Below are positions 47,799-63,758 of a stretch of 64,000 bases of DNA, piece after piece. Under the pieces are notes generated by a model. It saw only the letters and a list, made by a program, of their open reading frames with translations. It ran no database searches and had not been told where the DNA came from. This stretch comes from an uncultured Coriobacteriaceae bacterium. GTDB taxonomy: Bacteria; Actinomycetota; Coriobacteriia; Coriobacteriales; Coriobacteriaceae. Location: the NCBI GenBank assembly GCA_949287085.1, contig CASEER010000001.1, positions 62,001 to 126,000 of the forward strand, given 5' to 3'. Numbering within the stretch: the stretch's first letter is position 1; every line of letters begins with the position of its first letter. Made by a program: the position numbers and the translations under genes.

Positions 47799-49661
47799 AT
47801 GGGCGATAAAGTACAGGACGTGCGCGAACTGATTGAACGCATTACGTCGAGCGACCGCCTGCGCTCAAACTCCCATTTTTCCGAAGCTGTCTATCGCGCG
47901 GAACCCATTATTACCACGGGGCGCCAAATGGCAAACTACCTGCCCGAACGGTATCGCGAGATGCGCGGCATCTCTCGCTGGCAGGAGGGCAGCCCGCATG
48001 GGCGCTGGCTCACCGAGGCGGAGCTCTTTTACCGCCAAGGCATGTTTATGGCCGACTATGAGGACGATTGCCCCTACCATGGCACCTTTAAGGCGTATTT
48101 TCCCACGTACAGCGCCATGAGCGACCGGCAGCTGCGCGGGTATTTTACGTGGCGCGCCGCCGTACGACGCGGAAACATCCAGGAAGCCTCGCTCTCCTTT
48201 GCCTATGTATACCTCTACGAGCTGATCAACGGCATCGGCGTTGCCGACGCGCGCGACGGCTTTACCAAGCTCAAAACATTTTGGGAGGCATACCGCGCCT
48301 TTGCGCCTGAAATCGACCGTTACGTGCGCGTATGGCTTCGCGATTATGTGGTGTATTACGGGCTCGACCCGGCATGTCTTGCCGACAGCCGGTCGCTCAC
48401 GTTTGACCAGGCGCTCATCGACCTGGTGAACGAAAGCGCGCCACATGACCCACAGGTCTGGCATCTTGTGTCAGACGAGCCATTGAGCGCGCCTCTTGAT
48501 ACTGCAGCGCCTGCGCCAAGCGCAAAGCGCACGCGCAAAAAGAAGACGCCGGCGCTCCCCTTGCCGCCAGACACCGAGCACGAACGCCGCTTGCTCTGTG
48601 CCATCGACGCGCTTTCAACCTACCGTATCCGCCTGTCGCGTCTTTACCACGATGCGCCCGATGACCTGCGGCACGTTGCCGATGCCGTTTTTGTCCGCAT
48701 GCTGGAGTACTATCGCAAGCATCGAAAGAACGGCCTCATCGAGACCCTGTTTGGGGAGCGTGCGACGATGCCCTACACCATGTTTGCTTCGGCGGTGTTC
48801 TTTGAAAGCAAACCCCATGGACCGGTTGATTATGAGCTGGACCGCATTCACAGCTACCGCTGCCGCGATGGCCTGTGGACCTGCTCGCGCGTTTTTGGGG
48901 CACGCGACAAGAGCCCGCAGCTGGGAAGCATCATGCGTGACGTTGACCGCAAGCTGCGCACGGCGCTCGACTACCCGTATCCGCTCAAAGAGAAAAGCAT
49001 GCCTAAGTATCTTGAGCAGATCATCGACGGCGAGATTGCCACGTGGCTCTCGTGGAAAGCGGCGCATGCACCACGGCGCATTGCGATCGACCTGTCGCAG
49101 CTGGCAGGGATTCGCTCGGCAGCCGCGCTCACGCGGGAGGCGCTGCTTACCGATGAAGAACGCGCAGGCGGGGAGGAGCCTGGTGGCGCACTCGCTGCTG
49201 TGCAGCATAGCCCGGAAGAACCGGCTGCTGCGATGCCCCCTGCGCAGGAAGGCGTAACCTCCCCGGCGCACTTCATGCAGGAAAACGCGCGCGTCGCTGC
49301 GCGCTTAACCCAGGCAGATGAGGCCTTCCCGACGGCTGGCGCTCAGAGGGCCTCAGCCGCGCCGCCGGCTGCTGCCTCGAGCATGGCGTCCCCCGAGCAT
49401 GCCTTAGCTCCGGCGACGGGCGCCAGCTGCGCAGGAATGCTTTCGCACGCACAGGCCACCTACCTGCAGGCGTTGCTTGCGGCAGACGAGACCGCGCGCA
49501 CAGCGGCGGTGCAGGAAAGCAAGATGAGCGAGGACATGCTTGTCGACGCCATTAACGAGGCGCTCTTCGACGTGATCGGCGACACGGTAATCGAGATTAC
49601 CGCAGAGGGCCCCCATGTGATTGAAGACTACGAGGACGACGTAAAGGAAGCGCTCGCATGA
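47799..49661 (+). CDS. TerB_N/TerB_C-type protein, first gene of the ATPase-helicase cassette
   Basis: A 620-residue soluble protein. Its N-terminal 230 residues fit the TerB_N domain (ELFYRQGMFMADYEDDCPYH, SFAYVYLYELINGIG, YRAFAPEIDRYVRVWLRDYVVYYGL), the middle is helical, and the last 60 residues fit TerB_C (MLVDAINEALFDVIGDTVIEI, VIEDYEDDVKEAL). The intervening region from about 450 to 560 is Ala/Pro-rich and probably disordered. TerB-type domains are known from tellurite-resistance and phage-stress loci and may bind metal or scaffold other proteins. The ATG at 47799 follows GGGGTGAG; GTG 47790 is possible. It overlaps the BrxD-like gene by ATGA (4 nt), so the two proteins are made together. 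Confidence 0.82.
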   Translation: MGDKVQDVRELIERITSSDRLRSNSHFSEAVYRAEPIITTGRQMANYLPERYREMRGISRWQEGSPHGRWLTEAELFYRQGMFMADYEDDCPYHGTFKAYFPTYSAMSDRQLRGYFTWRAAVRRGNIQEASLSFAYVYLYELINGIGVADARDGFTKLKTFWEAYRAFAPEIDRYVRVWLRDYVVYYGLDPACLADSRSLTFDQALIDLVNESAPHDPQVWHLVSDEPLSAPLDTAAPAPSAKRTRKKKTPALPLPPDTEHERRLLCAIDALSTYRIRLSRLYHDAPDDLRHVADAVFVRMLEYYRKHRKNGLIETLFGERATMPYTMFASAVFFESKPHGPVDYELDRIHSYRCRDGLWTCSRVFGARDKSPQLGSIMRDVDRKLRTALDYPYPLKEKSMPKYLEQIIDGEIATWLSWKAAHAPRRIAIDLSQLAGIRSAAALTREALLTDEERAGGEEPGGALAAVQHSPEEPAAAMPPAQEGVTSPAHFMQENARVAARLTQADEAFPTAGAQRASAAPPAAASSMASPEHALAPATGASCAGMLSHAQATYLQALLAADETARTAAVQESKMSEDMLVDAINEALFDVIGDTVIEITAEGPHVIEDYEDDVKEALA

Positions 49662-51259
49662 CCACCACAGCATCAAGCACGGCGCCGCGCGTACCCAAGC
49701 GCGTGGCGGCCGTCATCATCAACTCGCTCAAGGGCGGCGTGGTGCCGCGTATTGGCCTCCCCTACATCACCGTCGGGCGCGAGGCCGAGATCAAGGCGCT
49801 CCTCACCGACTTGGCGCTCATTGCCGATGGCGGCGCGTCGTTTCGCTTCCTGGTTGGCCGCTACGGCAGCGGCAAGAGCTTTTTGCTGCAAACCATTCGC
49901 ACGCATGCCATGGGCGAGGGGTTTGTGGTTGCAGACGCCGACCTTTCGCCCGAGCGGCGCTTGCAAGGCGGGCAGGGCCAGGGCCTTGCCACCTACCGCG
50001 AGCTCATGCGCAACCTCTCCACCAAAACACGGCCCGAGGGCGGCGCGCTCACGCTGATCTTGGACCGCTGGATCTCAAACCTGCAAAACGAGGTTGCTCA
50101 AAACTGGTCCGCTGAACACGCCACGGCAAAAGCGGAAACTGCAGAGAGCCGCGCCGCTAGCGCCGCGCAGACGGCTGCCGGGGTCGAAGCTGCTTCGTTT
50201 GCTTCGCTTCCGGAACCCAGCAGCCGCGCTTTCGATCAGGCATCACTCCCGGGGCCCGGCGACCCCGCTTTCGATCAGGCGGTGGAGGCGCGCATCCGCG
50301 AGCAAGTTGCCGCACTCGAAGAGATGGTGCACGGCTTTGATTTTGCCCGACTGCTCACGCTCTACTACCGTGCGACTGCGACCGGCAACGACGATCTTAA
50401 AAGCAATGTTGCCCGCTGGTTCCGCGGCGAATATCGCACCAAAACCGAGGCAAAGCAGGAGCTCGGCGTCTCGATCATCATCGGCGATGACGACTGGTAC
50501 GACTACATCAAGCTCTTTGCGCAGTTTCTCAAGGGCGCGGGCTACCAGGGCATGCTCGTGCTTATTGACGAGCTCGTGAACCTCTACAAGATTCCCAACT
50601 CAATCACGCGCCAGTACAATTACGAGAAGATTCTCACCATGTACAACGACACCCTGCAGGGCAAGGCGCACTACCTGGGCATCATCATGGGAGGCACGCC
50701 GCAGAGCATCGAGGACCGGCGGCGCGGCGTGTTTAGCTACGAGGCACTGCGCAGCCGCCTGACGCAGGGGCGCTTTGCCGGCGAAGGCATGCGCGACATG
50801 CTCGCGCCCATCATTCACCTGCATCCGCTCACGTACGAGGAGCTGCTCGTGCTCATCGAGAAGCTGCAGCAAATCCACGCGGGCTACTTTGGGTACAAGG
50901 CGCGACTGACCGAACAGGACCTGGTGAGCTTTTTACAGATCGAATTTGGCCGCGTGGGCGCCGACACGCACCTTACCCCGCGCGAGGTCATCCGCGATTT
51001 CATCGAGCTGCTCGACATCGCCTACCAGAATCCCGAGACACCGGTCGCACATATTCTTGCCGGCAGTGCGGGAGACACGTTGGACGGAGCGGAAGAAGCC
51101 GGGGCAGGCGCTATCAAGGGTGCGGGCGCTATCAAGGGTGCGGGTGCCACTACGCCCGCCGCGTCTGTCGCCCCTGCCGTCTCCGGCCACAGCGCCGCGT
51201 CTGTCGCCCCTGCCGTCTCCGGCCACAGCGCAGCCGAGTTCACCGAATTCACCATTTAA
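49658..51259 (+). CDS. BrxD-like ATPase (BrxC/BrxD family, formerly DUF2791)
   Basis: A 533-residue AAA-like ATPase of the family found in BREX phage-defence loci. Walker A is GRYGSGKS (near residue 69), Walker B is VLIDELVNLYK (near 305), and the N-terminal family segment is IINSLKGGVVPRIGLPYITVGRE. Two low-complexity regions are added: an Ala/Glu-rich stretch at about 150-210 and a C-terminal tail with an exact 12-residue repeat (SVAPAVSGHSAA twice), coded by a 36-bp DNA repeat. The helicase gene starts 56 nt downstream. In BREX the ATPase works with helicases and methylases; here only the helicase partner is present. Confidence 0.87.
   Translation: MTTTASSTAPRVPKRVAAVIINSLKGGVVPRIGLPYITVGREAEIKALLTDLALIADGGASFRFLVGRYGSGKSFLLQTIRTHAMGEGFVVADADLSPERRLQGGQGQGLATYRELMRNLSTKTRPEGGALTLILDRWISNLQNEVAQNWSAEHATAKAETAESRAASAAQTAAGVEAASFASLPEPSSRAFDQASLPGPGDPAFDQAVEARIREQVAALEEMVHGFDFARLLTLYYRATATGNDDLKSNVARWFRGEYRTKTEAKQELGVSIIIGDDDWYDYIKLFAQFLKGAGYQGMLVLIDELVNLYKIPNSITRQYNYEKILTMYNDTLQGKAHYLGIIMGGTPQSIEDRRRGVFSYEALRSRLTQGRFAGEGMRDMLAPIIHLHPLTYEELLVLIEKLQQIHAGYFGYKARLTEQDLVSFLQIEFGRVGADTHLTPREVIRDFIELLDIAYQNPETPVAHILAGSAGDTLDGAEEAGAGAIKGAGAIKGAGATTPAASVAPAVSGHSAASVAPAVSGHSAAEFTEFTI
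51161..51232 (+). repeat. 36-bp exact tandem duplication at the ATPase 3' end
   Basis: Units 51161-51196 and 51197-51232 (starting GCGTCTGTCGCC) are identical except the last base. Just upstream, an 18-bp unit coding GAGAIK is also repeated. Both keep the reading frame. Confidence 0.85.
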
Positions 51260-53834: not shown

Positions 53835-55130
53835 TTACGCCAAAGCACCCTCGGCAGCTCCTGCATCGTAGAGCGGGCTGCCGAGGAAGTCGTCATCGTA
53901 GGGAATCGTGCCGTCAAAGACAGTCGGACCATCGGTGGCGAGCACGATGTAGTTGTCCTCACCCGCCCAAACCGGCTCATCCACGGGGAGCACGTGCACG
54001 TGGGCAAAGACTTCCTTGAGCGTGGCAACCTCGTCGCGGAGGAACGTGAGGTCCTGCCCGTCTTCGCGCGAAACAACGTTCATAGCGTACACGCCATCGG
54101 GGGTCAGACAGGCGCGCACGGCCCGCGCAGCCTCCACCGTAGCGAGCGCGCGAACCGGCTCCTCGCCGGTGAAGGTGTCGTTCACGATGGCATCAAAACG
54201 ATGCACGCGGCGGGGTCGCACGCCATGTGCGCTCCGGTCTTTCTGAGAAATGGGTTTAGTATCCCCCGTGGAAGGCGCTGCTGCAGACGGCTCTTCCGCA
54301 GCCGCTTCTTCCGCAGCCGTCTCTTCCGCAACTTCCTCTTTCACAGCCGCCCCTTCGACAGCGGGCAGCTCGGCAGGAACCGCCCCGGGCAGCACGAGCT
54401 CCCCTTCGGCAATCTGCTTGGCGCGCTGCTCCACATATGCGCGCCCGTCACCCTCAATGATGTGCAAGCGCTTGCCGGCGATCTTTTTGAGGCGGTCTAC
54501 ATAGAACCACGCCTCGGCGCATTCAATCACCTTGGGGTCAATCTCGACCACGCCCATAATCAGGTCAGGCCGTGCAAGCAGCGCGTGCTTGGGCCATGCG
54601 AACCCGCCTCCGCCGAGCGCGAGCACCCGATGCACGCCATGCCCGGTCTGTGCTGCGAGCACCCGGTCCGCCTCGAACACCGCGTCGAACGCACGGTGAT
54701 AGGTAAATACCGGCTCCCCCCAATGGAGCCCCAGGTTCGTGGCCGACTGGTACACGCCACCGAGCCTGAAAACGCGCACAAGCCGCCTGCCCACCAGGAG
54801 GGTGTAAATGAACGCGCGCCCTTGCGCGGTCTTTACCGTATGCGGCCAAAACCGCAGGCAGATATAGCCAAGAAGAAAGCATCCGGCAAAAAAGGCCCAC
54901 ACTTGCCAAGGGTATTTCCACAGCTCAATAAGCACTACCACAATGAAGATGATCGCGAGCGCCATAAGCGTACCCACGAACTCAAGGGGATTGTTCTCGG
55001 CCGGGCCGCCCGGACCGCCCATGCCACCTGAACTACCCGGGCCGTCTGAACCGACCGGGCCGCCTGCGCCGCCCATGCCACCTGAACTACCCGCGCCGCC
55101 CGAACGAGGCGAAATGTTGCCGTTGCTCAT
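53835..55130 (-). CDS. Membrane-anchored spermidine-synthase-like protein
   Basis: A 431-residue protein: a Gly/Ser/Pro-rich N terminus with repeated SSGGMGG units, two hydrophobic segments at about 55-90, then a spermidine synthase-type methyltransferase-like fold (VLALGGGGFAWPKHAL, MGVVEIDPKVIECA, DAIVNDTFTG). An Ala/Glu-rich insert of about 55 residues interrupts the fold. Because the polyamine-synthase GGGDG motif is changed to GGGGF, true aminopropyl transfer is doubtful. Start ATG 55130 follows GGGAGG and overlaps the elp3 stop by 4 nt, so both are co-translated. Confidence 0.78.
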   Translation of the reverse strand: MSNGNISPRSGGAGSSGGMGGAGGPVGSDGPGSSGGMGGPGGPAENNPLEFVGTLMALAIIFIVVVLIELWKYPWQVWAFFAGCFLLGYICLRFWPHTVKTAQGRAFIYTLLVGRRLVRVFRLGGVYQSATNLGLHWGEPVFTYHRAFDAVFEADRVLAAQTGHGVHRVLALGGGGFAWPKHALLARPDLIMGVVEIDPKVIECAEAWFYVDRLKKIAGKRLHIIEGDGRAYVEQRAKQIAEGELVLPGAVPAELPAVEGAAVKEEVAEETAAEEAAAEEPSAAAPSTGDTKPISQKDRSAHGVRPRRVHRFDAIVNDTFTGEEPVRALATVEAARAVRACLTPDGVYAMNVVSREDGQDLTFLRDEVATLKEVFAHVHVLPVDEPVWAGEDNYIVLATDGPTVFDGTIPYDDDFLGSPLYDAGAAEGALA

Positions 55131-57205
55131 AACGCCTCCCCAGCGTGGACCATTCCCTGCCCGCATGAAATTTCCTCTGTCCTCATTTCACGCTGTTGGT
55201 AGAGGCCGTGGTCGCGAAAGCCCAAGTGCCGATAATATTCGCGCGTGCCCACGGCGCTGATCACGTTGATGCGGTCATAGCCCGCCGCGCGCGCAAGCTC
55301 GCACGCCCGCTCAACAAGCCGCCGTCCCAGGCCATGATGCTGCGCCGCCGTGCCTTCCTCGCCCACACGGGCAGCCATGCCGTACACATGCACCTCGCGA
55401 ATCATGGCCTCACCGGGCGCAAAGGGAGGTTCGCAGCCAGCGGCGCGGAGCTCGTCAACAAGAGCCGCCATCGCGTCAGGATGAGGCAGCGAAAGCCGCA
55501 TGAACCCCGCGATGCGCCCCTCGGGGGTAATCCACTGCAAAAAGCGCTCGCTCGTGGATTTTGTCTCGTAGGGCACCACATCAAGACGGAGGGCCTCCAC
55601 ATCCACTTCGCTCGTTGCGATCTCGCGAAACCGGATTTCCTGCACCTGCTCACCCGTCTGCGCGCACCGCTCACGCACCCGGTTTTCGACCAACTGACGC
55701 AAGTTGGGCTTTTTGTTGCCCACCATAATGTCTCCGGACGAGAAGTCGCGGATCATGCGCGACACGCGGCAAAACGCCGGCGTGGCCAGCACGTCCTCTA
55801 CCAGCACGTCAACGAGCTCGTCTTCGGTATAGGGCCGCCATGCGCCGGCTTCGTAGCGCTCGCGCAGGCGGGCGCTTTCAATGAGCGCACAGGGGTAGAG
55901 CTTGATTTCATCGGGCTGAAAGGCGGCGTCGGTCACAAAGCGTGCATAATCCTGCTGGTCGGCAGCGGGCGCTGCACCCAGAAGGTTCACCATCGCGTGC
56001 GCATGGATCTTAAAGCCAAACAACCGCAGCAGCGAGAACGCGCGCGCGATTTGCCCGACCTGCATGTTACGCCCATTCGCATCAAGAATCCGCTGGTCAA
56101 CGCTTTGCACGCCCATCTGAATCTTGGTGGCTCCCATGCGGCGAATGGCAACAAGCGCCTCGGGCGTAATGGCATCGGGCCTCGTCTCAATTACGAGCCC
56201 CACCACGCGGTGGCGCGCGGTCTCGTTACGGCGCTGCTCGTGCTCAAGTTCATCCATGGTCGCCCGCTGCATGCGAGCGGCCGCCTGCCATGCAACGCTC
56301 TTGCGATAGAGCTGAGCAATCGCCTGGTTATAGGTGAGGTCACCGGCCGTCACGGCACGTTGCGTGGCATCGGCATCCGCTTCTGTGAGCTGAGCGGGGC
56401 AGCTGTCTCCCCCAGCCATTAGGCCGCAGCTCCGGTAGAACGCTCGGCGCTCGCGCACGCCCACGGGAACGGCATCGTCATGGGCGGTGCGGCCGGCCTC
56501 ATCGTGCGCGATGCGCTCCTCCCCGTCATGGGCGGTGCGACCCCTCTCATCCACGGCGCCCGGGGTACCCATTTGAGATTGTGAACACGTCCCCAAATCG
56601 GAAAACCCACGGAGGGCAGGGTTGGCGGCCTCGCCGGCCACCGCATCGTCGTTGAGGGCACAGAAGAGCTCGCGCATAAACCACGCTTGGTATTCTGCTG
56701 GGTAGTCGCTCCACGTGCCGCCGAGCACGATGAGTTCGATCTTGTCGGTGGCGTGCCCCATCTGCGACAGAGCGGTCAGACGAGCCGAGACCTGCAGATA
56801 CGGGTCAAAGCATGCCTGCTCGGCGCGGGCGCATGCGGGCTCGTCGGCAAGGTAGCTCTTGGGCATGCGCACATCACTCGGGCAGAAGATGCATGAGCCC
56901 GAACATGGCCACGGCTTTGTGATGACCGTGATGGTTGCCACGCCCGAGGCCGAACGGCGCGGTTTCATGCGAAGCACGCCTACAAGCCGCTCCTCAAGCT
57001 CGGGTGTGATGCCCCATCGCGCCCAGCGATCGGGCTCCTCGCGCTTTATTCGCTGGTAGAACGGCAGCAAGCGCCGCTTGGCAAACGCTCGCTTATCGCC
57101 GCCCGCGCGCTTGGCCGCCGCGTGCACAAGCTTTACGAGCGCGCGATCATCCACCGTCTCGCCCCGCCGGAGCGCCTCCAGTATCTGCAGAATAATCTCT
57201 TCCAT
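55127..57205 (-). CDS. elp3: Elp3: radical-SAM tRNA carboxymethyluridine synthase
   Basis: Builds cm5U at the wobble position (U34) of tRNAs from acetyl-CoA and SAM. The 692-residue protein has a radical SAM domain with Cys101, Cys105 and Cys108 in PCSGSCIFCPSD, followed by the family segments MPKSYLADEP, FDPYLQV and ELIVLGGTWSDYP, then the GNAT acetyltransferase domain (from about 560; GLGRRLVERACELA) that binds acetyl-CoA. Bacterial Elp3 is about 540-560 residues, so this one is extended; a Cys-free insert at about 215-255 carries repeated RTAHD units (48-bp DNA repeats at 56476 and 56524). ATG 57205 has only a weak ribosome site. The Trm9-like gene diverges upstream. Confidence 0.9.
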   Translation of the reverse strand: MEEIILQILEALRRGETVDDRALVKLVHAAAKRAGGDKRAFAKRRLLPFYQRIKREEPDRWARWGITPELEERLVGVLRMKPRRSASGVATITVITKPWPCSGSCIFCPSDVRMPKSYLADEPACARAEQACFDPYLQVSARLTALSQMGHATDKIELIVLGGTWSDYPAEYQAWFMRELFCALNDDAVAGEAANPALRGFSDLGTCSQSQMGTPGAVDERGRTAHDGEERIAHDEAGRTAHDDAVPVGVRERRAFYRSCGLMAGGDSCPAQLTEADADATQRAVTAGDLTYNQAIAQLYRKSVAWQAAARMQRATMDELEHEQRRNETARHRVVGLVIETRPDAITPEALVAIRRMGATKIQMGVQSVDQRILDANGRNMQVGQIARAFSLLRLFGFKIHAHAMVNLLGAAPAADQQDYARFVTDAAFQPDEIKLYPCALIESARLRERYEAGAWRPYTEDELVDVLVEDVLATPAFCRVSRMIRDFSSGDIMVGNKKPNLRQLVENRVRERCAQTGEQVQEIRFREIATSEVDVEALRLDVVPYETKSTSERFLQWITPEGRIAGFMRLSLPHPDAMAALVDELRAAGCEPPFAPGEAMIREVHVYGMAARVGEEGTAAQHHGLGRRLVERACELARAAGYDRINVISAVGTREYYRHLGFRDHGLYQQREMRTEEISCGQGMVHAGEAL

Positions 57206-57305
57206 GGCACCGCATTGTACCGCACGCGCATGCGGACGAGCTGTATGTGGTGAGCTGCCGCGGCGCTGCTTCCCCCGCTGCCCCCCCACGGCACAAAGTC
57301 TTCCC

Positions 57306-57371
57306 AAACATGTACACAAGCGTCAATAATTGCCCTAAATCCGGCGATTCGTGACGCTTGTGTACATGTTT
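57306..57371. repeat. Perfect 20-bp inverted repeat between elp3 and the Trm9-like gene
   Basis: Arms 57306-57325 and 57352-57371 (AAACATGTACACAAGCGTCA and its complement) with a 26-nt loop and a T-run at 57369-57373. Its place between two divergent genes suggests either a terminator for a transcript passing through, an operator, or the start of a small RNA. The gap 57206-57558 has no gene. Confidence 0.8.
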
Positions 57372-57373
57372 TT

Positions 57374-57488
57374 GGCGAGAGACCCGCGTCTGTGGCCGGA
57401 GGGCATCGTTTTAGGCGAGAAGGCCGCACTGCGGGAAGGCCTCGATTCAGGCGAGAGGCCCGCGCGTAGACCAGAGGACCTCGATGTA
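57374..57488. repeat. Three imperfect tandem repeats upstream of the Trm9-like gene
   Basis: Units begin with GGCGAGA at 57374, 57414 and 57450 and share GGCCGCG-like and CCTCGAT segments; lengths are 40, 36 and 39 bp. They directly follow the perfect inverted repeat and end 70 nt before the likely GTG start. Confidence 0.65.
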
Positions 57489-57558
57489 GGTCAAAGCTAC
57501 TCGCCTTGCTTTTTGTCCGCCGGTGAGCATACTGGTAGACGAGCGATGGGGAGGACTC

Positions 57559-58359
57559 GTGGAACTGCAAACAATACGCGCGCTCATAGCCCTCAACACG
57601 GCGTTCTACCGCAAGAACGCGCAGGGATTCGCCGCCACGCGCAGCAACCCTTGGCCCGGCTGGGAGCGAATCGCATCGTTGCTGAACGACTCCCTCGCGG
57701 CGGGACGCGCGGCATCTATCCTAGACCTTGCCTGTGGAACTATGCGCTTCGAGCGCTTTCTCACGCATGCGCTGCCGGATAGGCGCCTCTCGTTTTATGC
57801 CGTCGACAACTGTCTGGCACTTGCAACGGGGGACGAGCCCCCGGCGCAAACGACGTTCTACGACGTCGATATCCTGGGCACGCTCGCCGGGAGTGCTCCA
57901 AAAGCGCCCGGGGCCGCCACGCCCAATGCCCTCGACGCACTGCCATCATGCGACTTCTCTTGCTGCTTTGGGTTCATGCATCACGTACCTGGATGGGAGC
58001 TGCGCGCGAGCGTGATGCGGTTCCTGGTCGAGCACACGCGCCCTGGTGGCCTGATTGCCCTATCGTTCTGGCAGTTTATGAATGACGAGCGGCTTGCGCA
58101 CAAGGCGTCGCAGGCCGAGCAAGCCGCACGCGAGCACCCCGAGAACCTTACGTTTGCCGTCGACGCCCTCGAGGAGGGCGACCACCTCCTGGGGTGGCAG
58201 GAAACTGGAACCTTCCGCTATTGCCACCACTTTACAGAGGAAGAGATTGATGCGCTGGTCGCGATGCTGCCGGTCGGGATGAGCAGAGAGCTTGCCCGGT
58301 ATTCGAACGACGGCAAGGGCCGAAAGCTCAACCGATACGTCGTGCTCCAGCGTCTATGA
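57559..58359 (+). CDS. SAM-dependent methyltransferase, Trm9/ALKBH8-like
   Basis: A class I methyltransferase of 266 residues. SAM motif I is ILDLACGTMRF; the N-terminal segment FYRKNAQGFAATRSNPWPGW and the C-terminal YCHHFTEEEIDALV resemble Trm9-type enzymes that methylate carboxymethyl-U34 to the methyl ester. Lying divergently next to elp3, which makes that very substrate, supports this. GTG at 57559 is chosen since GGGGAGG precedes it; GTG 57523 is the alternative. A small Ala/Pro-rich insert follows motif II. The specificity is inference; other small-molecule methyltransferases share the fold. Confidence 0.7.
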   Translation: MELQTIRALIALNTAFYRKNAQGFAATRSNPWPGWERIASLLNDSLAAGRAASILDLACGTMRFERFLTHALPDRRLSFYAVDNCLALATGDEPPAQTTFYDVDILGTLAGSAPKAPGAATPNALDALPSCDFSCCFGFMHHVPGWELRASVMRFLVEHTRPGGLIALSFWQFMNDERLAHKASQAEQAAREHPENLTFAVDALEEGDHLLGWQETGTFRYCHHFTEEEIDALVAMLPVGMSRELARYSNDGKGRKLNRYVVLQRL

Positions 58360-58532: not shown

Positions 58533-59546
58533 GTGGGACTCACGCATATTCGCACACCAAAGAACTTCGTGCTCGAAGAGCGACTCGAGCGCTACGGCGC
58601 GGCCATTGAGGAGAAGCCCGAAACCTTCCGCGGACATTGGGCGCAAGCATGCTGGCCGCTGTCTGTCAGCACCGACCATGTGACCGCCACTGGCACCGCT
58701 CCCGTAATCAAAAACGGCACCTCCCACGCGGCCGGCGCGAGCGACAACCATGCGGCCGGCGCGAGCGACAACCACGCGGCCGGCGCGAGCGACGGCCGCG
58801 CGCTCGGCAATGACGATTGCACCTCATGGGAACGCGCCCGCAGCTTCTCCGCCGTTCACCTCGACCTGGGCTGCGGCAAGGGAGCATACCTCATTGAGCG
58901 CGCCCGCCGCGAGCCCAACAGCCTATTAATTGGCATGGACACCGAGCCCATCTGCGTTGCCTACGCCGCACAGTACATCTGCGAGGCGGAGCTACCAAAC
59001 GCCCTCGTGCTGCCGCGCGGCGCAGATTCGCTCGCGCGCATTTTCGCGCCCGGCGAGCTTGCGGCCATCACGCTCAACTTTCCCACGCCGTATCCCAAGC
59101 GCAAGTTCGCGGAGCGCCGCCTCGTGCATGTCAACCATCTGCTTTCCTACCGGAACCTGCTCGCGTCCGGCGCTACGGTCACGCTGCGCACCGACAGCCA
59201 GCCGCTGCGCGATTACGCGCTCACGCAGTTCGAGGCAGCGGGCTACCGCACGCTCTGGACCTCGGATAACGTGCGCGCCGAACACCCCGAGCACCCCGTA
59301 ACCGAATACGAACGGCGCCTTGCCGCTCAGGGCGCCCCGGTTTACGGCATCTGCGCCACGCCGGCAGCCACGCCAAGCCCCGCGCAGATTGAACGCGGGC
59401 TCAGCGCCGAGCAAAGCCTTGTGGCCTATCTCCCGCTCGACCTCGACGCGATGGGCTACGTGCCCCTCGGCATGGAGGGCGCTGTCATCAACCTGCGCAA
59501 CCGGGCGCGCAACGCATCGCGCAGCGCCTCTCGCGAGCACCGTTAG
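58533..59546 (+). CDS. trmB: Divergent TrmB-like tRNA (guanine-N7) methyltransferase
   Basis: A 337-residue class I methyltransferase resembling TrmB, which makes m7G46 in tRNA. SAM motif I is DLGCGKGAYLIERARREP; the TrmB-specific motif normally reading NFPDPWPK is here NFPTPYPKRKFAERRL, a change at a key acidic position. An insert at about 60-90 consists of an 8-residue unit (HAAGASDN) repeated three times. Homologues are about 210-230 residues. The GTG at 58533 has GGAG seven nt upstream. It converges with the BASS transporter gene, overlapping by 4 nt. Function as TrmB is likely but the altered motif lowers certainty. Confidence 0.75.
   Translation: MGLTHIRTPKNFVLEERLERYGAAIEEKPETFRGHWAQACWPLSVSTDHVTATGTAPVIKNGTSHAAGASDNHAAGASDNHAAGASDGRALGNDDCTSWERARSFSAVHLDLGCGKGAYLIERARREPNSLLIGMDTEPICVAYAAQYICEAELPNALVLPRGADSLARIFAPGELAAITLNFPTPYPKRKFAERRLVHVNHLLSYRNLLASGATVTLRTDSQPLRDYALTQFEAAGYRTLWTSDNVRAEHPEHPVTEYERRLAAQGAPVYGICATPAATPSPAQIERGLSAEQSLVAYLPLDLDAMGYVPLGMEGAVINLRNRARNASRSASREHR
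58725..58796 (+). repeat. 24-bp tandem repeat inside trmB
   Basis: Three in-frame 24-bp units, 58725-58748, 58749-58772 and 58773-58796 (CACGCGGCCGGCGCGAGCGA type), differ at one to three bases. They fall before the SAM-binding region, where length change would be tolerated. Confidence 0.9.
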
Positions 59547-60968: not shown

Positions 60969-63758
60969 ATGTCTCAAGCACACCGCACCCAGCCCGCATC
61001 TGAGCCGCCCACGGCCACCTCGGCCAGCTCGTTCGCCGCCGGCACCGGCAGCACCGGCGAGCACGGATCGCTCGGCGCGCTCTCACCCAGCTGGTGGGAA
61101 CCTGCGGAAGGAGAGGAGCCCGAGCCGTGGTGCTCGGCCGATGAGGCCTTTGAGCGCTTTCTCTCCTGGTGCGACGAACGCGGCATCGAGCTCTGGGAGC
61201 ACCAGGAGGAGGCCCTCATGGACCTCGCCGCCGGCGACCATGTGATCCTGGGCACGCCAACCGGCTCCGGCAAATCGCTCGTGGCGCTCGGCATGCTTTT
61301 CCTCGGCATGGCACAGGGGCGCCGCGCGTACTACACCGCCCCCATCAAGGCGCTCGTCTCGGAGAAGTTCTTCGATCTGATCGAGGTGCTCGGCCGCGAC
61401 AACGTCGGCATGATCACCGGCGATACGCACATCAACACGCAGGCGCCCGTCATCTGCTGCACGGCGGAGATCCTCGCCAACCAGGCGCTCCGCGAGGGCG
61501 AGGACACGGACGTGGGCGTGGTCGCCATGGACGAGTTCCATTACTTCGCCGATCCCGACCGTGGCTGGGCATGGCAGGTGCCGCTGCTCACCTTGCCGCA
61601 CACGCAGTTCATGCTCATGAGCGCCACGCTCGGCGACGTCACACAGATTGCCGACGCACTGGAAGAGCGCACTGGCCGCGTCGTCGACCGCGTGACCGAC
61701 GCGCCGCGACCCGTGCCGCTCGCCTACGAGTACGTGGACACCGCGCTTGAGGGCACGGTCGAGCTCGCGCTGCGCCGCGACGAAGCCCCGCTCTACATCG
61801 TGCACTTCTCGCAGGACGCCGCACTCGCTACGGCGCAGTCGCTCGCGAACTTCGGCATCGCCACCAAAGAGCAGCGCGAAGCCGTGAAGGAAGCCGCCAA
61901 GGGCACGCGCTTCACCACGGCGTTCGGCAAGATCCTAAAACGCCTCATCTCCAACGGCGTGGGCGTGCACCACGCCGGCATGCTGCCGCGCTATCGTCTC
62001 TTGGTGGAGCGACTCGCCCAACAGGGGCTCCTGCCGGTCATCTGCGGCACCGATACGCTCGGTGTGGGTATCAACGTGCCCATCCACACCGTGGTGCTCA
62101 CGGCGCTCACCAAATTCGACGGCTACAAGATGCGCCGCCTCCGCGCGCGCGAGTTCCACCAAATCGCCGGGCGCGCTGGACGCGCGGGCTTCGATACCGA
62201 GGGCATGGTCATCGCCGAGGCGCCCGAATACGAGATCGAGAACGCCAAGCTTATCGCAAAGGCGGGCGACGACCCCAAGAAGCTGCGCAAACTCAAGAAG
62301 AAAAAACCGCCTGAGGGCTTCGTAACCTGGAACAAGCAAACCTTCGAGCGCCTCTGCGAGGCCGTGCCCGAAACGCTCAAGCCGCGGCTGCGCATCACCA
62401 ATTCGATGGTACTGTCCATGGTGGAGCGCGGCGGCGACGCGCGCGCCCGCGTAAGCGAGCTCATCGAAGCAAGCTTGCAAACACCAGAGGAGAAACTCAA
62501 GCTTGAGGCACGCGCGAGCGAGATCTTCGCCACGCTCATCGACACCGGGGTGGTGGTGCGCGACGAAGTCCCCGGCGGCGTGGATGCACCAAGCGACACG
62601 GACGCCTCCAGCGGCGCTGGTACATCCAGCGGCGTGGACGCGCCCGACGGCGCGGATGCACCAGGCGACACGAGCACCCCCACGGACGCAGCGCCGCGGG
62701 TGGAATACTCCCTCACGGTAGACCTCCCCGAGGACTTCGCTCTTGACCAGCCGCTTTCGCCGTTCTTGCTTGCGGCGCTCGAGCTGCTCGACCCGGAAAG
62801 CGAAACCTACACCTACGACCTCATCTCGATGGTCGAGGCCACGCTCGAGGACCCCAAGCAGGTGCTCCGCGCGCAGGAGCGGGCCGCGCGCGACCGCGCC
62901 ATGCAAGAGATGAAGGCCGACGGCGTGGAATACGAGGAACGCCTCGAGCGCCTGCAGGACATCACGTATCCCAAGCCGCTTGAGGACTTGCTCGATGCCG
63001 CATTTGCCCAATACTGCACCAAGGTGCCGTGGGCAGCGGACTACGAGCTTTCCCCCAAGAGCGTGCTGCGCGACATGCTGGAGAGCGCGGCGGACTTCAA
63101 GGGCTACGTCCAGAAGCTCGGCATCGCGCGATCTGAGGGCATCTTGCTGCGCTACCTTGCCGAGGCGTTCCGCTCGCTCGACCGCACCGTACCGCTGGAG
63201 AAGCGCAACGACCAGCTGAACGACATCATCTCGTGGCTGGGCTTCGTGGTGCAGAGCGTCGATTCGAGCCTGGTGGATGAATGGGCCGCTGCGGGCGAGG
63301 ATTCCGCTTTCGACGCCGCGCCGCCGAGCGGTGCGGACGTGGTGGTGGCGGACCGCCGCGGCATGACGCTCTTGGTGCGCAACGCCCTCTTCCGCCGCGT
63401 GAGCCTGGCTGCCCGCGAGCGCGCCGACGAGCTGGGAGAGCTGGACGAAGCGTGGGGCATGGGCGAGCTTCGTTGGCGCCGCGCACTTGATGCATTCTTC
63501 GAAGCGCACGAGGAGCTGCTGGTGGATGGCGATGCGCGCTCGACGGCGTTCTTCACCATCGACGAGTCCGACGAGCTTAAGCCCGCAGCCGAGGGCGGTC
63601 ACGTGTGGCACGTGCACCAGATCTTCCACGACAGCGATGGCGACCACGACTTCGGCATCATGGCCGACGTTGACCTCGACGCCACGCAAGAGGAGAGCGA
63701 GGCGGTGTTCAAGAACTACCGCGTCGGGTTTATCGAGGAACTGCTGGAGCAAGGGTAG
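60969..63758 (+). CDS. Ski2-like RNA helicase with DUF3516
   Basis: A 929-residue helicase of the actinobacterial DUF3516 group, thought to act on RNA. Motifs: I GTPTGSGKS, II DEFHYF (DExH), III SATLG, VI QIAGRAGRAGF. The N-terminal 45 residues are low-complexity, and an Ala/Asp/Ser-rich insert of about 45 residues (VDAPSDTDASSGAGTSSG region) sits in the C-terminal half. ATG 60969 follows AAGGAAG. Followed by a hairpin and a PIN-domain gene on the other strand. Confidence 0.9.
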   Translation: MSQAHRTQPASEPPTATSASSFAAGTGSTGEHGSLGALSPSWWEPAEGEEPEPWCSADEAFERFLSWCDERGIELWEHQEEALMDLAAGDHVILGTPTGSGKSLVALGMLFLGMAQGRRAYYTAPIKALVSEKFFDLIEVLGRDNVGMITGDTHINTQAPVICCTAEILANQALREGEDTDVGVVAMDEFHYFADPDRGWAWQVPLLTLPHTQFMLMSATLGDVTQIADALEERTGRVVDRVTDAPRPVPLAYEYVDTALEGTVELALRRDEAPLYIVHFSQDAALATAQSLANFGIATKEQREAVKEAAKGTRFTTAFGKILKRLISNGVGVHHAGMLPRYRLLVERLAQQGLLPVICGTDTLGVGINVPIHTVVLTALTKFDGYKMRRLRAREFHQIAGRAGRAGFDTEGMVIAEAPEYEIENAKLIAKAGDDPKKLRKLKKKKPPEGFVTWNKQTFERLCEAVPETLKPRLRITNSMVLSMVERGGDARARVSELIEASLQTPEEKLKLEARASEIFATLIDTGVVVRDEVPGGVDAPSDTDASSGAGTSSGVDAPDGADAPGDTSTPTDAAPRVEYSLTVDLPEDFALDQPLSPFLLAALELLDPESETYTYDLISMVEATLEDPKQVLRAQERAARDRAMQEMKADGVEYEERLERLQDITYPKPLEDLLDAAFAQYCTKVPWAADYELSPKSVLRDMLESAADFKGYVQKLGIARSEGILLRYLAEAFRSLDRTVPLEKRNDQLNDIISWLGFVVQSVDSSLVDEWAAAGEDSAFDAAPPSGADVVVADRRGMTLLVRNALFRRVSLAARERADELGELDEAWGMGELRWRRALDAFFEAHEELLVDGDARSTAFFTIDESDELKPAAEGGHVWHVHQIFHDSDGDHDFGIMADVDLDATQEESEAVFKNYRVGFIEELLEQG

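Follow-up and report, generated by a model that had tools for sequence, protein, structure and literature searches.

In this report, we found that two divergent genes of a Coriobacteriaceae bacterium probably encode a two-step pathway for modifying the tRNA wobble base. Elp3 is predicted to make cm5U34, and a Trm9-like methyltransferase would esterify it to mcm5U34, or to mcm5s2U34 together with MnmA; we put the probability of this reading at about 0.8. In yeast and humans, mcm5U on the wobble base is built by Elp3- and Trm9-type enzymes. In the bacterium, Elp3 would use acetyl-CoA and SAM radical chemistry to carboxymethylate the wobble uridine at C5 in a subset of tRNAs, and the Trm9-like enzyme would transfer a methyl group from SAM onto the carboxylate of cm5U34, giving the ester mcm5U34. 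With MnmA, which is encoded elsewhere in the genome, the pair would yield mcm5s2U34 on the tRNAs for Lys, Glu and Gln. It would substitute for the missing MnmE-MnmG route, and would do so with no detectable Trm112.

A sequence-only reading of this DNA had raised such an Elp3/Trm9-like mcm5U34 pathway as a possibility, and the idea is supported and largely holds, its product being a prediction. It is carried by the identities of the genes, their near-strict co-occurrence and divergent synteny, the homology of the methyltransferase to Trm9 with four of the five mapped Trm9 residues, the near absence of MnmG and the presence of MnmA.

The elp3 locus and its neighbors

The window is the whole 64,000-nt stretch of DNA that was analysed. 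It belongs to a Coriobacteriaceae draft genome (1.54 Mb, 76% complete) that is congeneric with Collinsella massiliensis (G165, L031) and Enorma massiliensis (G080, L049). The relevant features are as follows.

55127-57205, minus strand: elp3, intact, ATG start, 692 aa; predicted tRNA U34 carboxymethyl-forming radical SAM and GNAT enzyme
57206-57558, no strand: divergent intergenic region between elp3 and the methyltransferase gene, exactly 353 nt
57306-57371, no strand: inverted repeat with perfect 20-bp arms and a 26-nt loop; a copy of a dispersed palindrome
about 57373-57487, plus strand: three degenerate tandem units of 36-40 nt; pairwise scores above those of all 500 shuffles
57559-58359, plus strand: Trm9-like class I SAM methyltransferase, 266 aa; predicted cm5U34 carboxyl methyltransferase, from profile, alignment, model and co-occurrence
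57637-57654, plus strand: codons for T27-R28-S-N-P-W32 (the Trm9 R29 segment); R28 and W32 invariant in alignments A1 and A3
58216-58230, plus strand: codons for R220-Y-C222-H-H (the Trm9 R241/Y243 segment); Cys222 in place of Tyr243
about 58533-59546, plus strand: TrmB-like tRNA (guanine-N7) methyltransferase with a 24-nt tandem-repeat insertion

An intact elp3 (55127-57205, minus strand) does lie opposite a divergent methyltransferase gene (57559-58359, plus strand), as had been claimed. The mechanical open reading frame of elp3 extends further, up to a TTG at 57319. Its product scores 392.3 bits against TIGR01211, over the curated cut-off of 350, and contains the Pfam domains Radical_SAM, Radical_SAM_C and GNAT (the last at residues 620-672). 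The closest PDB match is Elp3 of Dehalococcoides mccartyi (5l7j, E 1.8e-74), to which the radical SAM cysteines C101-x3-C105-x2-C108 align. The conserved part is split into two halves by about 120 inserted residues (approximately 192-315), a stretch that is lineage-specific and in part of low complexity. TIGR01211-type Elp3 proteins score about 390 bits in Coriobacteriia versus about 600 bits in other Actinomycetota. Formation of cm5U34 by the 55127-57205 protein is a prediction.

In-frame tandem or low-complexity insertions occur in many unrelated proteins of the window (Elp3, the TrmB-like protein, a spermidine-synthase-like protein, an ATPase and a helicase), at 56476-56551, 58724-58808, 54998-55105, 49658-51259 (3' part) and 60969-63758. 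The spermidine-synthase-like protein adjoins elp3 (53835-55166, minus strand); it matches a fused MFS/spermidine synthase family and has hydrophobic stretches as well as a Gly/Pro-rich N-terminus.

The 353-nt gap, the perfect 20-bp inverted repeat and the three tandem units described by the sequence-only reading are all present between the two genes; the degenerate units are not listed by Tandem Repeats Finder. The arms of the inverted repeat (57306-57325 and 57352-57371) are perfectly complementary, or 90% so when taken as 29-nt arms, and the hairpin has a folding energy of -48.8 kcal/mol (z -11.6). Two microRNA families of Rfam match the intergenic region, far below their gathering scores and on account of the hairpin alone. 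Six copies of the palindrome occur in the source genome (G000), with conserved arms AAAACATGTACACAAGCGTCA, a constant 26-nt spacing and a variable loop sequence; none was found in 65 other genomes of the family that were searched. The copies outside the window are:

G000 C4:117668-117729, C8:21637-21698, C8:23280-23341, C5:82412-82473 and C16:4939-5000: the other copies in the source genome
G080 C2:108473-108534: a single copy in Enorma massiliensis

The element is possibly REP-like or a paired binding site. We rejected it as a regulator of the pathway, and it is probably no part of the elp3/methyltransferase system, because further copies lie at other sites of the genome and the loci of relatives lack its exact arm.

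The open reading frame of the methyltransferase spans 57523-58359 (plus strand). Its probable start is the GTG at 57559, which is preceded by the Shine-Dalgarno sequence GGGGAGG and agrees with the N-termini of homologs. No curated family names this protein; when it is searched alone, Pfam, NCBIfam and single-sequence PDB searches return generic or insignificant matches only, and a plasmid collection contained no close relative.

The TrmB-like gene does follow the methyltransferase gene, so that three genes lie within 4.42 kb, as had been pointed out. Its product, which contains NHAAGASD repeats, scores 100.7 bits against PF02390, over the cut-off, and 105.3 bits against TIGR00091, under the cut-off of 112.65. 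The arrangement is conserved in only part of the group: the TrmB-like gene lies 3' of the methyltransferase gene in 44 of 80 loci, and for this reason we rejected it as a third member of the pathway.

Kinship of the methyltransferase with Trm9

The Trm9-like flanks reported earlier were confirmed: TRSNPWPGW lies towards the N-terminus and RYCHHFTEEE towards the C-terminus. In yeast Trm9, the substitutions R29A, H115A, R241A, Y243A and N271A abolish tRNA affinity and activity (PMC5372719). Four of these residues, R29, H115, R241 and N271, correspond to R28, H141, R220 and N258, which are invariant across the bacterial, archaeal and yeast sequences of alignment A3, as are W32, D208, W213 and H223; the four counterparts do not vary in A1 either. 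The last Asn, which is that of the DNWW segment, falls at 272 rather than 271 in the yeast sequence used here. The counterpart of Tyr243 is Cys222 in the window and Cys throughout A1, and is Cys, Tyr or Phe in members from other Actinomycetota; given this replacement, we file the protein as Trm9-like and not as Trm9.

A profile built from 105 sequences of the family scored 63.6 bits against a haloarchaeal Trm9-like protein and 33.5-44.4 bits against yeast and Yarrowia versions of Trm9. The controls scored lower: UbiG 21.3 bits, CmoA 17.4 bits, and Tam, BioC, CmoM and UbiE no more than 8.5 bits; the similarity to CmoM (6.9 bits, E 4.2 at Z 20000) is at noise level. This comparison drew on two Trm9 sequences and few controls, and its yeast sequence was checked against the Yarrowia Trm9 chain of 5cm2 (59% identity); Trm9 still ranked above the controls when 5cm2 was its only representative (34.8 bits). 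The match to Trm9 and to the haloarchaeal protein spans most of their length, and hhalign profile comparison with Trm9 gave a probability of 97.2, at approximately 20% identity between the window protein and Trm9.

The enzyme could instead follow Elp3 on the same tRNAs and form another product, either a further derivative of cm5U or a 2'-O methylation of the wobble nucleoside. The dependence on Elp3 described below would fit any step downstream of cm5U, and the change of Tyr243 to Cys would fit as well. However, four of the five mapped Trm9 residues with a presumed role in positioning cm5U34 do not vary, and the similarity to Trm9 extends over most of the length. We therefore regard a different product as improbable and prefer esterification to mcm5U34.

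Two bridging sequences strengthen the link to Trm9. For the methyltransferase of L132, from another actinomycetote, the first PDB match is Trm9 itself (5cm2, E 9.9e-18), with an alignment that runs from TR..PW, via the DVFIPW lid, to RYCHAFTRGEL. On such alignments, the methyltransferases of other Actinomycetota bridge the Coriobacteriia family to Trm9. The haloarchaeal bridge is a plasmid gene (L113:2992-3702) annotated only as a class I SAM-dependent methyltransferase; it was found with a Trm9 query and is Trm9-like by profile.

In a maximum-likelihood tree, the sequences from Coriobacteriia, other Actinomycetota, haloarchaea and yeast group together against CmoM, BioC and Tam with support of 98/95, which drops to 80/75 when UbiG and UbiE are added. 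With this larger control set, AU tests excluded none of five controls as the neighbor of the Coriobacteriia clade. Homology to Trm9 is thus well supported by motifs and scores and less so by the tree, since the tree's support depends on the controls and the AU tests exclude none of them. The grouping with Trm9 and not with small-molecule methyltransferases, on which the sequence-only reading had staked its proposal, is borne out by scores and alignment, with tree support of 80/75 to 98/95.

The AlphaFold2 model of the methyltransferase (pLDDT 92, pTM 0.90) has a class I fold. Foldseek returned 729 PDB matches at E <= 0.001, with Trm9 at rank 8 (TM 0.70 by target length). VIA-align placed METTL6 first (Z 20.5) and had CmoM among the class I enzymes (Z 17.5); 5cm2 was not among its best 50 matches. 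The comparison of models supports the class I fold and does not decide the family. The leading place of METTL6 is what would favor modification of another anticodon-loop position, such as a METTL6-like m3C32, with the loop itself as the shared link to Elp3. Against this, class I methyltransferases differ little in structural Z score, and it is with Trm9 that the protein shares the TR..PW, HH, D...W and RY.H motifs and the Asn close to the C-terminus. Nor would modification of an unrelated position be expected to vanish whenever Elp3 is absent. Such a role seems to us quite unlikely, and cm5U34 remains the preferred substrate.

Co-occurrence with Elp3 and the pathway context

Among 298 genomes of Coriobacteriia, 175 have a strong Elp3 and 173 the methyltransferase, all 173 being Elp3-positive; 123 have neither gene (Fisher p = 3e-83, a value that overstates the independent evidence because the genomes are related). 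Both states exist within five families (f2, f3, f4, f7 and f13) and two genera (g15 and g25), and in each the genes switch together. Where both positions were listed (132 genomes), 124 pairs show the divergent arrangement, no more than 6 kb apart, and three are adjacent on the same strand, the remainder being farther apart, on different contigs or convergent. Elp3 stands without a detectable partner in two genomes, G096 and G199. An explanation of these as contig-edge artefacts was not borne out, as another gene lies beside elp3 in both, and they remain exceptions.

The phylum was searched with the 25-row profile A1 in 246 Actinomycetota genomes at a threshold of 1e-8 or better. The methyltransferase was found in 18 genomes, and the identical 18 carry Elp3. 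Four of them belong to families outside Coriobacteriia (f47 and f56), and their Elp3 proteins score 594-605 bits; three have the divergent arrangement, with 0.2 to 1.8 kb between matches, and in the fourth the methyltransferase gene is close to a contig end, with elp3 on a different contig. The conservation of the gene pair, on which the original idea had been made to depend, thus extends across Coriobacteriia and into two further Actinomycetota families. A contig titled as a Propionibacteriaceae MAG (L096) bears an elp3/methyltransferase pair of the Coriobacteriia type; it is probably misbinned or mislabelled.

These distributions also speak to the idea that the protein is a small-molecule methyltransferase that sits beside elp3 by chance or through shared regulation. 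The generic Pfam and NCBIfam matches would allow it. The one-way dependence on Elp3 in families containing both states argues against it, as does the retention of the pair in distant Actinomycetota, and we consider it the least credible of the alternatives to a Trm9-like step after Elp3.

MnmG exceeds the cut-off in just one of the 298 Coriobacteriia genomes (G071 C8:4785-6713), where it may stem from horizontal transfer or contamination. The 123 genomes with no strong Elp3 also lack an MnmG above the cut-off, with one exception, and are left without a recognised first enzyme for any C5 modification of U34. MnmA exceeds its cut-off in 39 of 40 relatives, the source genome included. Trm112 had no match in the source genome (76% complete); among 99 genomes of the class, there were 13 weak matches, mostly inside much longer open frames. 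With MnmG nearly absent, MnmA present and no Trm112 found, the predicted product is mcm5U34, or mcm5s2U34 where MnmA acts. The substrate, the product, the set of tRNAs and the independence from Trm112 are inferred.

It is likely, with less confidence than we attach to the pathway itself, that mcm5(s2)U34 is made in much of Coriobacteriia, and in two or more further Actinomycetota families, by a two-gene, Trm112-free module that replaces MnmE-MnmG and is gained or lost as a unit.

Meaning and relation to known systems

Bacteria have been credited with cmnm5U, mnm5U and nm5U, and archaea and eukaryotes with cm5U and mcm5U (PMC7694415). The C5 side chain of bacterial U34 is accordingly attributed to MnmEG, with mcm5U left to eukaryotes and archaea (PMC7694415, PMC5400242). 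Trm9-Trm112 is placed in fungi and also in archaea (PMC7694415), and a 2017 review held that no bacterial genes similar to Trm112-dependent methyltransferases, including Trm9-like ones, were detectable (PMC5372719). Open PubMed Central yielded no paper joining Elp3, Coriobacteri* and tRNA modification. A methyl ester on U34 in a bacterium had been called noteworthy at the outset. A U34 ester would not in itself be new, because bacteria make mcmo5U with CmoM (PMC10516636); one derived from cm5U would be. The conserved, side-by-side Elp3/Trm9-like pair in gut and environmental bacteria suggests that mcm5U is made by bacteria too. If so, common gut bacteria (Collinsella, Enorma, Slackia and Atopobium relatives) carry a eukaryotic-type wobble ester, bacterial Elp3 can be assigned a definite end product, and biochemists obtain a minimal Trm9 that is free of Trm112.

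The MnmE-MnmG/MnmC route also modifies U34 of split-box tRNAs at C5, but by aminomethyl chemistry, and its MnmG is essentially absent from Coriobacteriia. CmoM of E. coli methylates a side-chain carboxyl group of U34 to the ester, as the predicted enzyme would, whereas its substrate is cmo5U from the CmoA/CmoB route. The Elp3 of D. mccartyi is likewise a stand-alone bacterial Elp3 and the nearest solved structure; the Coriobacteriia protein is more divergent and carries the insertion. The nearest parallel to the methyltransferase is Trm9 and the methyltransferase domain of ALKBH8. Here the bacterial protein differs in the change of Tyr243 to Cys, in an identity of only about 20% in Coriobacteriia and in a gene divergent from elp3; further, its pair comes without a Trm112 that we could find, in contrast to Trm9-Trm112, and without the hydroxylase domain of ALKBH8. 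Like them, however, it is a class I SAM methyltransferase and a partner of Elp3/Elongator, is predicted to convert cm5U34 to mcm5U34, and retains the Trm9 motifs in the same order: TR..PW, HH, D...W, RY.H and the terminal Asn.
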